Source: Methanolinea sp.
Lineage (GTDB): Archaea > Halobacteriota > Methanomicrobia > Methanomicrobiales > Methanospirillaceae
Reading direction: 5' to 3'
Length of the DNA: 64,000 nucleotides
NCBI GenBank assembly: GCA_018262855.1
Contig: JADFDO010000007.1
Span: 62,001-126,000, forward strand
The notes below the pieces were generated by a model that worked only from the letters and a program-made list of their open reading frames with translations, searched no databases and had not been told where the DNA came from. Position 1 is the stretch's first letter; every line of letters starts with the position of its first letter. The position numbers and the translations under genes are program-made. Below, in pieces: positions 60,259-64,000 of this stretch.

Positions 60259-60777
60259 GCCCGGGTATCCCTTTCAAATACTTTCTATGCCGCTCTATTC
60301 TGCACAATATTAGTATATATATCCATATAGTTCCGTTCGGGCAAGACCATCCCACCCCCTCATGCAACCTCCTCTTCCCCAACCTCATCGCACCTTCCAC
60401 GGGATCCAGTGCAGCCAGCCCCTGTGGGATATGCAGGGGTTACTACTTCACGAAACGAGCAGACATTCCCGGGATAGAACGGAATCGATATTTTTGAGAG
60501 CCACTTTTGATCTCCAGCTGAGATAATGGCGAGCACCGGAAAATTGAATCCCTTTTCCTTCCTTTTCCGGGAAAATTGGGCAGGATCGACCACAAACATT
60601 TAAACCAATTCTGTCACACCTTCTGAGTGATACCTCTCAGCTGCCAGAATGATGCGGCTCGTGGTTCCTCATGCCAGAACCTGAAAGCGAAAGTGATGAT
60701 GACCCCCATAATAGGGTCAATTCTGCCGGTTTTTCGATCTCTTCTTTCCCGGATAAGGGCCTTTTTCATGGCCGCCA
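60259..60777. other. Promoter region between phoU and the ATP-grasp operon
   Basis: It contains the phoU TATA (60313-60324) and a weaker AACATTTAAACC at 60595 that may serve the rightward operon. Two minus-strand frames of 70-80 codons lie here, but neither has a recognisable pattern or start signal. Nothing else is seen. Confidence 0.5.
60313..60324 (-). promoter_or_regulatory. TATA box of phoU
   Basis: GGATATATATAC on the minus strand, about 60 bases before the phoU ATG. Confidence 0.5.
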
Positions 60778-60785
60778 GGAGGTGA
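60778..60785 (+). promoter_or_regulatory. Perfect ribosome binding site deciding the start of the RimK N-domain gene
   Basis: GGAGGTGA, complementary to the full archaeal anti-Shine-Dalgarno core, ends seven bases before ATG 60793. It fixes this start although the first 30 codons look loosely conserved. Confidence 0.75.
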
Positions 60786-60792
60786 CACCCTG

Positions 60793-61524
60793 ATGCCCCA
60801 GGGGATCCTGATCCCGGAGGCACAGCCGTCTCCCGATCTCTTCACAGGAGTTCCGTCGCAATGGCGTGCATCCAGAGAAAAGGGAGATCCTAGTACCGCC
60901 CTCTCAAAAGACAGCATCCATATGGCTGAACGGGATGGCACGATATACCTGGTCTCGGAGAACTATTCGTATAAGAGCGAAGCGTACTACTCCATCCTCG
61001 AACGGGAGATCCGGGGCCAGCGCGTGGCACCTGACTCGTCATCAATCCTCGACGCCTTCGTGGTGCCCATATGCCTCGAGCGGGCCCACTCCTGCGGGAT
61101 CCCGGTGGCCGACTATGCCATCTCCCAGTCCTGCATCCCAGTCCCCGCGGTCATCTATGGCCTGAATTACTTTGCCTGTACTTCGCATTTCGAGGTGCTC
61201 CAGGAGAACGCCCAGGAGAGGGAGATGATCAGGCATGTCACCAACAACGGGAAATATCCCTTCTGCTCGCAGCGCCTTGATGTGGGGGTGCGTATCGAGC
61301 GAAAGACCTCGATCTTCGGGATGGTGGCCTCTCCCGGCAAGGGGATGGCTGACATGGCCGGCAGGATCTGGGAGTGTTTCAGGATACCTCTCGTTGAGAT
61401 CGTATGCCTGTCGGGCCCGGACGGCCTTCGCCTCTCCTCGCTCTGCCCGGTCCGCTACTCCCATCTCTCCAAGGTGGAGAAATCTATCGTCAGGGCCTGC
61501 CTTTCCGGCCAGGAATTCCTATGA
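60793..61524 (+). CDS. Stand-alone RimK-type N-terminal domain protein
   Basis: A 243-residue protein matching the RLAN (RimK-like ATP-grasp N-terminal) domain, without its own ATP-grasp catalytic part. Features: DGTIYLVSENYSYKSEAYYSILEREIRGQRVAPDSSSILDAF, and the C-terminal SIFGMVASPGKGMADMAGRIWECFRIPLVEIVCLSGPDGLRLSSLCPVRYSHL. In several bacteria the RLAN domain is fused in front of a RimK ligase; here the two are separate genes in the same order, overlapping by ATGA. The perfect ribosome binding site at 60778-60785 supports the start. The role is probably to shape the ligase's substrate pocket or partner it. Confidence 0.82.
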   Translation: MPQGILIPEAQPSPDLFTGVPSQWRASREKGDPSTALSKDSIHMAERDGTIYLVSENYSYKSEAYYSILEREIRGQRVAPDSSSILDAFVVPICLERAHSCGIPVADYAISQSCIPVPAVIYGLNYFACTSHFEVLQENAQEREMIRHVTNNGKYPFCSQRLDVGVRIERKTSIFGMVASPGKGMADMAGRIWECFRIPLVEIVCLSGPDGLRLSSLCPVRYSHLSKVEKSIVRACLSGQEFL

Positions 61525-62393
61525 GCCGGCTCGGGGTGTTCGTCGACCGGAAGACACTCTCGTCTGCCGAGCAGCTCAATGCCCTGATCCGGTGCAGGGA
61601 CACCGCGGAGGAGATGGGGCACGGTGTCGAGTTCATCTTCCCCGTCGACATCAGGAAGATCCCCCAGATGGACGGGCTCTTCATCCGGGCCAGGACCGAT
61701 CCCATGAACGTCACCTATGTCGCATCTCGTATGGCCTCGTTTGCACAAATACCTGTGATCGATGACCCCATGTCAATCCAGATCTGTTCCGACAAGGTGA
61801 ACATGTACTCCCGCCTGATGCAGCACGGAGTTATGATCCCCCGGACGCTCTTTGTCTCCCAGAGGGATCTCTGTCCTGCAAGGGCAAGGGAGATCTTCGA
61901 CGATCTCGGCTCGCCTTTGATCGTGAAGGAACCCTCAACCTCCTTCTCGCTCCGGGTGGAGAAGGTAACGGACCCTGCAGGGCTCCTCCAGGTCGCCCGC
62001 CGCTACTTCAAGATGTCGGACTGGATCGTTGCCCAGGAGTTCGTGGAGAGCACCTATGACTGGAGAGTGGGGGTGCTCGGTGGTGAGTTCCTGTATGCCT
62101 GCAAGTACATCATCCCCTCGCAGACGTTCAAGATCCAGGATTCGGTGAACGGCCATGTCGTCTACTGCGGGGTGCAGAGCGTGCCGCCCGACATGGTGCC
62201 TGCCGCGGTGCGCGAACTCGGGGTCAGGGCCGGGCGGGCAATAGGGAACGGGCTTTATGGGGTGGATATCAAGGAAGGACCCTCGGGCCCGTGTGTGATC
62301 GAGGTCAATGACAACCCGTCGCTCGAAGGCGGGGAAGATACCGCGTACCCGGACGTATACCGGGAGATCGTCCATACCCTCCTGGAGACGTGA
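61521..62393 (+). CDS. RimK-family ATP-grasp ligase
   Basis: A 290-residue ATP-grasp enzyme of the RimK/alpha-L-glutamate-ligase type. It has CSDKVNMYSRLMQHGVMIPRTLFVSQ, LGSPLIVKEPSTSFSLRVEKV for the ATP-grasp Lys, IVAQEFVESTYDWRVGVLGGEFLY, and NGLYGVDIKEGPSGPCVIEVNDNPSLEGGED with metal-binding Asp/Glu/Asn. It would form an amide bond between a carboxylate (as acyl phosphate) and an amine. It follows the RLAN gene by ATGA overlap and precedes a YkgJ-like gene by nine bases. The substrates are unknown. Confidence 0.9.
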   Translation: MSRLGVFVDRKTLSSAEQLNALIRCRDTAEEMGHGVEFIFPVDIRKIPQMDGLFIRARTDPMNVTYVASRMASFAQIPVIDDPMSIQICSDKVNMYSRLMQHGVMIPRTLFVSQRDLCPARAREIFDDLGSPLIVKEPSTSFSLRVEKVTDPAGLLQVARRYFKMSDWIVAQEFVESTYDWRVGVLGGEFLYACKYIIPSQTFKIQDSVNGHVVYCGVQSVPPDMVPAAVRELGVRAGRAIGNGLYGVDIKEGPSGPCVIEVNDNPSLEGGEDTAYPDVYREIVHTLLET

Positions 62394-62402
62394 ATATTTT
62401 CC

Positions 62403-62906
62403 ATGACAGTGTCTTTTGAGGCGATAGCAGAGGCCATCTGCGCGGCATGCGGGGGAAAGTGCTGCCACGAGGCTCATCCCCCCCTGAGCCCGGCAAGAAT
62501 TGCGATCCTGCACGGGAAAGGGGTGCTTCCATCAGCGTTCGAACGCAATGGATACACCAGGATGAAAGCGGGTCACGACGGAACGTGCATCATGTGCACG
62601 GACGGGCGGTGCAGGATCCACGCGGTGAAACCCGAGACCTGCGTGGCAGGGCCGTTCACGTTCGACGTTGCCGGGAATACTCTCCGGCTGTTCCTCAAGC
62701 GCGAATCGATCTGCCCGCTCGTGCCCTACCTGAAGGCAGACGACATGGCATACCAGACCCAGTGCAGGATGGCTGAAAAGAACCTTGCCGATCTCGTCCG
62801 ATCGCTTCCCCTCCACGAGCTGGATGTGATCAACGCCATCCCCGAACCTGAGACCGATCTCGTTGCAGAGATCCCTCTTGACATGGAAAAGGATCGTATC
62901 CCATGA
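62403..62906 (+). CDS. YkgJ-type Cys-cluster protein
   Basis: A 167-residue protein with the YkgJ/UPF0153 Cys pattern: Cys 13, 16, 20, 21 (CAACGGKCC) and 62, 65, 70, 80 (CIMCTDGRCRIHAVKPETC). The family probably binds zinc or an iron-sulfur cluster; activity unknown. The residue after the final cluster continues as FLKRESICPLVPYLKADDM. It ends in ATGA overlap with the following GCS2 gene. Coupling to a ligase operon is the only hint of role. Confidence 0.88.
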   Translation: MTVSFEAIAEAICAACGGKCCHEAHPPLSPARIAILHGKGVLPSAFERNGYTRMKAGHDGTCIMCTDGRCRIHAVKPETCVAGPFTFDVAGNTLRLFLKRESICPLVPYLKADDMAYQTQCRMAEKNLADLVRSLPLHELDVINAIPEPETDLVAEIPLDMEKDRIP

Positions 62907-64000
62907 AGACGGGAACCGAACACGAATATTCCCTCAACGGGCCGGGACTGGTCCCGCTCCCGGAATCCGACAGGGTACTTGAGGAAGTATCCGGCAGATG
63001 GGACGGCGAGATCCCTCTTGGGCGGTCGTTCATCTGTAAGGAGCTCCAGAAGACCGTGCTCGAGTTCGCCCCGGAACACCCTTCATTCCGGTTATCTGTA
63101 CTCGAGTCCTCGGTGCAGGACGGCATCAGGGAATTTTACCGCAGGTTCCAGAATCGGTACACCCTTCTGGGGCTCGGGATGCACCCGACCCTCTCGCTTG
63201 ACGAGACCCGGGTCTGGGACCACGACGAAGGCGAATATTACGAGGCCTACGACCGGCTCTTCTCCCTCCAGCAGCACGGCTGGCTGAACATCCAGGCGCT
63301 CCAGGTTAACCTTGAATACCGGAGCGAAGATGCGCTCGTGGAGATACATAACCGGGTCCGCTGCCTGATCCCGTTCCTGATCGCGGTCTCGGCCGCATCC
63401 CCATTCGTGGAAGGGAAGGTGCCCGGCCCGGTCGACAACCGCCTCATCTATTACCGGGAGAACCAGGCGCAGGTCCCGGCCATCTGCAACGGCATTGTCC
63501 CGGATCCGATCGCGTCGGTGGGAGATTACCGCAAGAGACTCGCGGGGATCTACAGGGAGCTCGAAGAACGTGGTGCGTCGATCCTCTGCGAGGAGTGGGT
63601 TGCCTCCGCAGGGGTGATCGTCCGGTTCTCCCGTCCCTGCGTGGAGATCAAGGTCCCCGACGAACAGGAATGTGTCCGCTCCGATATCGCCTTCTGTGCA
63701 TTCGTCAGGGCACTGCTCCGAGCCAGGGACCTCCCGCTCGAAGAAGACAGGGGAGCGCTCCTCGATATGACCGAAACAGCAATTCATACCGGGACGGCCG
63801 AACTGGAAGATGATCTGAAAACACTGTACCGGTATGCAGAAAAGTCAGCCACCCGTGAGGAACTCCGCTACCTTCCCTTAATTCGAAGAAGAATCGAGGA
63901 GGGGAGCCTCGGGCAGATCCTTCTTGAGAGGTACCGGGACACCGGAGATCTCCGGGGGATCATGCAGGATCTTGCGATGTGCCTGAAGGAGAACAGGCCA
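62903..64000 (+). CDS. GCS2-type carboxylate-amine ligase (3' end outside window)
   Basis: 366 visible residues of a glutamate-cysteine-ligase-like (GCS2) amidoligase, open to the window end. It has EHEYSLNGPG with the metal-binding Glu pair at the N-terminus, GMHPTLSLDETRVWD, QQHGWLNIQALQVNLEY, AVSAASPFVEGKVPGPVDNRL and QAQVPAICNGIVPDPI, all typical of the fold. It would ligate an amino acid to a carboxylate via an acyl phosphate. It starts inside the YkgJ stop codon (ATGA). Archaeal methanogens are not expected to make glutathione, so the substrate is likely different. Confidence 0.88.
   Translation, partial: MKTGTEHEYSLNGPGLVPLPESDRVLEEVSGRWDGEIPLGRSFICKELQKTVLEFAPEHPSFRLSVLESSVQDGIREFYRRFQNRYTLLGLGMHPTLSLDETRVWDHDEGEYYEAYDRLFSLQQHGWLNIQALQVNLEYRSEDALVEIHNRVRCLIPFLIAVSAASPFVEGKVPGPVDNRLIYYRENQAQVPAICNGIVPDPIASVGDYRKRLAGIYRELEERGASILCEEWVASAGVIVRFSRPCVEIKVPDEQECVRSDIAFCAFVRALLRARDLPLEEDRGALLDMTETAIHTGTAELEDDLKTLYRYAEKSATREELRYLPLIRRRIEEGSLGQILLERYRDTGDLRGIMQDLAMCLKENRP

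Follow-up and report, generated by a model that had tools for sequence, protein, structure and literature searches.

At the right end of a 64,000-nt stretch of Methanolinea sp. DNA (contig JADFDO010000007.1, positions 62,001 to 126,000; the whole stretch is referred to as the window), four genes follow one another on the forward strand. They encode an RLAN protein, present as a separate gene (60793..61524, 243 aa), a RimK-like ATP-grasp ligase (61521..62393, 290 aa), a YkgJ-type Cys-cluster protein for which metal binding is presumed (62403..62906, 167 aa) and a GCS2 carboxylate-amine ligase (62903..64000, 373 aa), the gene of which runs off the window. When the four proteins were compared with hidden Markov models from Pfam, all of them scored above the gathering cut-off: 33.8 bits for RLAN (PF14401, cut-off 25), 37.3 bits for RimK (PF08443, cut-off 21), 42.1 bits for CxxCxxCC (PF03692, cut-off 23) and 107.7 bits for GCS2 (PF04107, cut-off 21). 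The junctions consist of an ATGA overlap between RLAN and ATP-grasp, a 9-base gap between ATP-grasp and YkgJ, and a second ATGA overlap between YkgJ and GCS2, which is the tight arrangement, place by place, that a preliminary description of this DNA had given. From the genome sequence to the right of the window, the GCS2 stop codon lies 24 bases past position 64000, and beyond it comes a convergent gene for an amino-acid permease, with no same-strand gene directly after; hence, the four genes end the unit. The other border had to be redrawn. RLAN, with AGGAGGTGA immediately 5′ of its ATG, had been regarded as the lead gene, but a small acidic open reading frame (ORF; 60671..60793, forward strand, 40 aa) stands first, its TGA stop overlapping the RLAN start (TGATG).

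Conservation of the unit was analyzed in 108 genomes of the family. RLAN is present in 61 of them and GCS2 in 59: both genes occur in 58 genomes, RLAN only in 3, GCS2 only in 1 and neither in 46 (Fisher p ~1e-25, not corrected for kinship). In 54 of the 58 genomes carrying the pair, the two genes are located on the same contig, about 2 kb apart; the other 4 pairs are on separate contigs of fragmented assemblies, and in the sole GCS2-only genome that gene lies at a contig end. A YkgJ subfamily profile identifies 50 of the 108 genomes, every one of them RLAN-positive. The usual order (RLAN, ATP-grasp, YkgJ, GCS2) is repeated, overlaps included, in about 20 relatives and also in many named genomes. 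Taking into account that order and overlaps recur and that RLAN and GCS2 occur together, the arrangement is not due to chance. The unit is passed on en bloc, and the operon is real and conserved; the expectation that the four genes would co-occur in relatives was therefore correct. Among distant relatives of the same phylum, two show the order RLAN-ATP-grasp-GCS2-YkgJ, and two others (G202 and G226) have a convergent YkgJ gene and a GCS2 gene located at another place in the genome; all four parts are kept in each of them. We also observed that, in a single-contig genome (G130), RLAN and ATP-grasp are each split into two frames, by decay or by sequencing error. At six loci of Methanoregula and its neighbour genus, a same-strand ADP-forming acyl-CoA synthetase-like gene comes after GCS2, and it may be either a further partner or plain synteny.

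Both ligase folds named in the preliminary description keep their catalytic motifs. In the ATP-grasp protein, residues D249, E261 and N263 are invariant (set A2) and align with the GVD...EVN metal motif of RimK; the protein also carries a conserved KEPSTSFS stretch. In GCS2, residues G4, E6, E8, E47, E54, H94 and E248, along with others, are invariant in archaeal and bacterial members. Judged from these sequences, the enzymes of the operon look like active ligases. The GCS2 gene is the only one of its family in the genome. Three RimK-family matches were found in this genome: the operon ATP-grasp gene, one within an ORF that, named from its sequence, encodes a biotin-dependent carboxylase subunit, and a RimK/MptN-like ligase located elsewhere, which is also the lone glutathione-synthase-type match. 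This gene inventory agrees with the earlier statement that the genome holds no resident thiol or glutathione pathway. In one lineage (g28, three loci), GCS2 no longer contains the GTEHE motif, the ELQK motif or a central stretch, RLAN and ATP-grasp being intact; this GCS2 copy is likely a pseudo-enzyme retained in the same place.

The Cys-cluster protein YkgJ shows eight invariant cysteines (positions 13, 16, 20, 21, 62, 70, 80 and 104). Its structure model is poor, with a predicted local distance difference test score (pLDDT) of 67.3 and mostly below 50 in the Cys region. The protein had been considered part of the pathway. Co-inheritance with RLAN is in agreement with that; nevertheless, the ligases do not need it, and YkgJ is an accessory, because several lineages (four loci) have intact ligases but no YkgJ. 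A role as obligate carrier or substrate, analogous to LysW, was rejected as the leading idea: the C-terminus of YkgJ is not conserved, and the ligases persist where YkgJ is lost or decaying. In lineage g15, two loci carry a decaying YkgJ gene in which CxxCGG and KPETC are gone, partly overlapped by the GCS2 frame.

The structure predicted for RLAN gave a more definite result. An AlphaFold model based on 46 homologues reached a pLDDT of 92.7 and a predicted template modelling score (pTM) of 0.89. When this model was compared by Foldseek with solved structures, the top 50 matches were all ATP-grasp enzymes (E down to 1e-8, probability 1.00), including ArgX, LysX, RimK, the graspetide ligase PsnB and D-Ala ligase. 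In VIA, comparison of the RLAN model with ArgX gave a Z of 12.9, with 195 of 208 residues aligned over ArgX residues 10-280 at a root mean square deviation of 4.2 Å. According to the model, the fold of RLAN is that of a shrunken ATP-grasp enzyme. The metal-binding motif and the metal ligands seem to be lacking: where an active ligase reads EVNDNP, the last hairpin of RLAN reads LSSLCPV, the two being matched by eye from strand order and not by coordinate alignment. From this we infer that RLAN and its neighbour form a pair made up of a dead and an active ATP-grasp protein.

The small ORF in front of RLAN was spotted after aligning the region 5′ of RLAN in relatives, where conservation reached beyond the promoter. 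The 40-aa product encoded in the window starts with MPEPESESDDDPHNRV and reads in full MPEPESESDDDPHNRVNSAGFSISSFPDKGLFHGRQEVTP. Ten genomes of the genus have this small ORF with a like stop/start overlap. Across the genus, its first 18 codons accumulate 99, 80 and 233 differences at codon positions 1, 2 and 3, respectively; the excess at position 3 shows coding constraint on the head, and the remainder is flat. When the tail was compared in 16 close pairs, differences were evenly spread by codon position (203/197/215), yet the frame stays open up to the RLAN start, which argues for coupling rather than for a functional tail. In Methanoregula and a neighbouring genus, the ORF is longer and encodes a DDDDE run as well as HR..FS; the acidic run, DDDP or DDDDE, is located at about residues 7-13. 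A profile of the 24-residue head gives a single match per genome in 43 of the 108 genomes (E <0.001), each directly upstream of RLAN, and none in genomes that lack RLAN. At the same place, other lineages have different short ORFs (g15 and some Methanothrix) or none. At eight loci of g15 and Methanothrix, these short ORFs overlap the RLAN start; they begin with MN..NY.E..ALF.DY..., M.HRYYKKHRSGVVIRPPEC... or MASDS..HRSLSKYRRVSYAKK....

Just 5′ of the small-ORF ATG there is an inverted repeat (60638..60660 in the window, forward strand), followed by a conserved GTG-containing stretch and then the ATG. In 39 genomes, the arms of this hairpin pair at a mean of 6.71 of 7 positions, whereas exchanging arms among genomes gave 5.89 at most and shuffling the upstream bases gave 5.10, and sliding the hairpin partner gave far lower pairing values. 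The stem in the window is among the weaker ones (5.5/7). Two-sided changes are seen in 8 of the 9 pairs of the alignment, and 77.5% of its cells are paired versus 64.8% in shuffles, figures that are lowered by partial misalignment of the rows from the window genus. RNAalifold detected little covariation in that genus alone; covariation appears only with the wider genome set. A covariance model (R1) matches the window at 60621-60673 with 29.1 bits, as well as two genomes that had been kept outside model building (3.1e-7 and 7.4e-6). At other genomic places, matches that might indicate a regulon were at noise level only (E 0.02 or worse); Rfam gave nothing but chance matches to the leader (best E 0.3), and the window leader folded alone displays no excess stability (z 0.37). 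Spacer lengths in the hairpin range between 5 and 13 bases, a variation more readily explained by an RNA structure than by an operator made of two half-sites. Further upstream, a TATA-box-like element (TTTAAA, 60599..60604, forward strand) was recognized by eye 72 bases 5′ of the small-ORF ATG; it is conserved in the genus alignment, and a similar element stands about 64-75 bases 5′ of that ATG in most of 41 genomes, also by eye. With the element at this distance, the hairpin would sit right at the 5′ end of the mRNA.

Relatives of the unit extend well beyond this family. Among named genomes, archaeal relatives occur in Methanoregula, Methanolinea, Methanothrix, Methanomassiliicoccales and Methanofastidiosum, and there are bacterial relatives too; no RLAN was found in the plasmid collection that was searched. 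In the archaea sampled, RLAN is nearly always a gene of its own that overlaps or abuts ATP-grasp, whereas most bacterial relatives have a single fused RLAN-ATP-grasp protein of about 480-550 aa. The observation that RLAN is split was thus accurate, the split being a property of the whole clade and not peculiar to this genome. When an unrooted tree was built from the ATP-grasp domain, a single branch (support 100) separated the split from the fused forms, apart from a few bacteria on the split side (Calditrichota, Planctomycetota and Deinococcota) and one Thermoplasmatota metagenome-assembled genome on the fused side. As the root of the tree is not placed, a pre-fusion state, which had also been suggested, is indistinguishable from a later split.

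The bacterial operons closest to the unit read C39 peptidase, RLAN-ATP-grasp fusion, GCS2 and an N-formylglutamate-amidohydrolase-like gene (FGase). They share with the archaeal unit the RLAN, ATP-grasp and GCS2 families: GCS2 comes directly after the fused gene in 15 of 80 named loci, and the archaeal GCS2 profile matches bacterial GCS2 proteins at E ~1e-49 to 1e-68. At the fused loci, a C39-type peptidase gene is often present upstream and FGase downstream; at other loci, a GNAT + C39-type (DUF3335) fusion lies beside RLAN-ATP-grasp members. The bacterial protein is a single fused one, with an RLAN part about 50 residues shorter than archaeal RLAN and with peptidase and amidohydrolase partners; in archaea, RLAN is split and longer, and the partner is YkgJ. 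No YkgJ was found alongside the bacterial fusion operons. The operon core is therefore a known kind of system, and to call the four genes an undescribed system was too strong as far as this core is concerned. RimK-like ligases associated with other ligases and peptidases (amidoligase neighbourhoods) were reportedly surveyed in 2009 by Iyer and co-workers; the literature that we searched, Iyer et al. 2009 not included, held no account of this operon. To the extent that this could be checked, novelty lies in three features: the split archaeal form accompanied by YkgJ, the fold of RLAN and the module made up of the acidic leader and its hairpin.

Putting these results together, we favour the interpretation that the unit is an archaeal, split, ATP-dependent amide-bond pathway with a translational switch at its acidic leader, to which we give a probability of about 0.45. 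GCS2 would turn a carboxylate, most likely the side chain of glutamate, into an acyl phosphate and join an amine to it, and the RimK-like ATP-grasp enzyme would likewise couple a carboxylate with a second amino acid. RLAN, apparently dead, would be the obligate partner of the latter for substrate binding or regulation, and YkgJ a metal-binding accessory. The product could then be a small peptide-like compound, made by the logic of gshA and gshB and not necessarily a thiol. In most family members, the mRNA would open with the hairpin, followed by a short ORF in which a run of Asp/Glu comes early. The stop/start overlap and the open, unconstrained tail suggest that ribosomes must pass the small ORF to reach RLAN; they would have to read it as far as the stop that overlaps the RLAN start, and the operon would be made only if the acidic stretch can be translated.

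A precedent for this last step exists: ribosomes are destabilised by acidic residues near the beginning of an ORF, an effect through which MgtL and MgtQ control Mg2+ transporters (PMC8092293, PMC11282234). Like these leaders, the archaeal ORF is short, starts with an acidic stretch (Pro-acidic in the window genus), precedes the gene that would be regulated and has an RNA hairpin nearby. It differs from them in its length of 40-81 aa, in overlapping the next start codon and in having the conserved hairpin before and not after the ORF. The hairpin and the acidic ORF might, with a chance somewhat below even, constitute an undescribed archaeal system, be it an acidic peptide of ribosomal origin amidated by the ligases or a translation switch that gates the operon through an acidic nascent chain.

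Several points weigh against the switch-controlled pathway. The sequence profiles of RLAN and ATP-grasp enzymes are not linked (hhalign probability 0.9-8%, E 0.004-0.06). The scores of GCS2 and of the ATP-grasp protein fall far short of all named NCBIfam equivalog cut-offs. The acidic ORF is confined to part of the family. Families f14 and f36 and genome G062 keep RLAN and ATP-grasp with no GCS2 in the genome, so that the two ligases need not share one pathway everywhere. Destabilisation of ribosomes by acidic stretches is known from bacteria and eukaryotes. Finally, we found neither a product nor a substrate nor an activity for any of the members.

The alternative that survives best, although we consider it unlikely, is that the acidic ORF is itself the substrate, the ligases amidating or extending its head (the Asp/Glu run, then HR..FS) while the tail is removed or idle. 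Carboxylate-amine ligases need carboxylates, the ORF is present as one copy per genome and always at this operon, its head is conserved and its tail variable, and the presence of PsnB among the fold matches of RLAN recalls graspetide synthesis. As a graspetide precursor, however, the ORF has its conservation in the head and a tail without any constraint, which speaks against the core of a ribosomally synthesised and post-translationally modified peptide (RiPP) lying in that tail; such a core could instead lie within the head. Moreover, relatives whose ATP-grasp proteins are 61-74% identical have a quite different upstream ORF or none, and the unit is devoid of a protease or transporter gene. 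A translated leader rather than a substrate is therefore the more likely identity of the small ORF.

Less probable still is the synthesis of a thiol, in which YkgJ would handle metal or redox chemistry; the thiol would be gamma-glutamylcysteine or a tripeptide resembling glutathione. In glutathione synthesis, a GCS2-type ligase (GshA) and an ATP-grasp ligase (GshB) act one after the other, the same chemical logic as that of the archaeal unit, and gamma-glutamylcysteine is made by haloarchaea and has been suggested for methanogens (PMC7278568). Nevertheless, RLAN and YkgJ have no counterpart there, and the scores are far from those of glutamate-cysteine ligase and glutathione synthase: GCS2 reaches at most 40 bits against GshA-type equivalogs with cut-offs of 176-463, and no GshB equivalog is among the NCBIfam matches of the ATP-grasp protein, which in the tree groups with RLAN-RimK proteins. 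Furthermore, five methanogens tested had neither glutathione nor gamma-glutamylcysteine (PMC7278568).

Equally improbable, in our opinion, is that the ligases modify a cellular protein, for instance a ribosomal protein as RimK does, and that in bacteria a C39 peptidase or FGase reverses the modification. The ATP-grasp protein belongs to the RimK family and has the GVD...EVN metal motif in common with the alpha-glutamate ligases RimK, LysX, MptN and CofF; a RimI-like GNAT fused to a C39-type peptidase is found beside split or fused members, and peptidases beside ligases suggest a reversible mark. Unlike those ligases, the ATP-grasp protein has a separate RLAN partner and the KEPSTSFS stretch, and its equivalog scores are below cut-off, with 34.8 bits for the RimK model where 331 are needed; in addition, the archaeal unit has no peptidase. 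Tailoring of a methanogen coenzyme (methanofuran, tatiopterin or other) was rejected, as patchy presence (61/108) and bacterial spread speak against an essential coenzyme.

Some further features were recorded around the operon. The convergent amino-acid permease follows it in three genera (L002:6107-7405 (-) and three other loci). Also to the right of the window, two adjoining small genes (L002:7492-7955 (-)) resemble HicA/HicB toxin-antitoxin genes by eye, and a gene for a helix-turn-helix + ImmA/IrrE-like metallopeptidase overlaps a small PIN-like gene (L002:8878-10417 (+)), a pair that likewise looks toxin-antitoxin-like by eye.

For a domain of unclear role, the fold predicted for RLAN offers a simple idea, namely that of a dead ATP-grasp protein paired with a live one. 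The unit as a whole provides a strictly co-inherited, five-part target for searches in methanogens, be it for a new metabolite with amide bonds or for a new protein mark. If the interpretation of the acidic leader ORF and its covarying hairpin is true, it would carry nascent-chain control of the bacterial style into the archaea.

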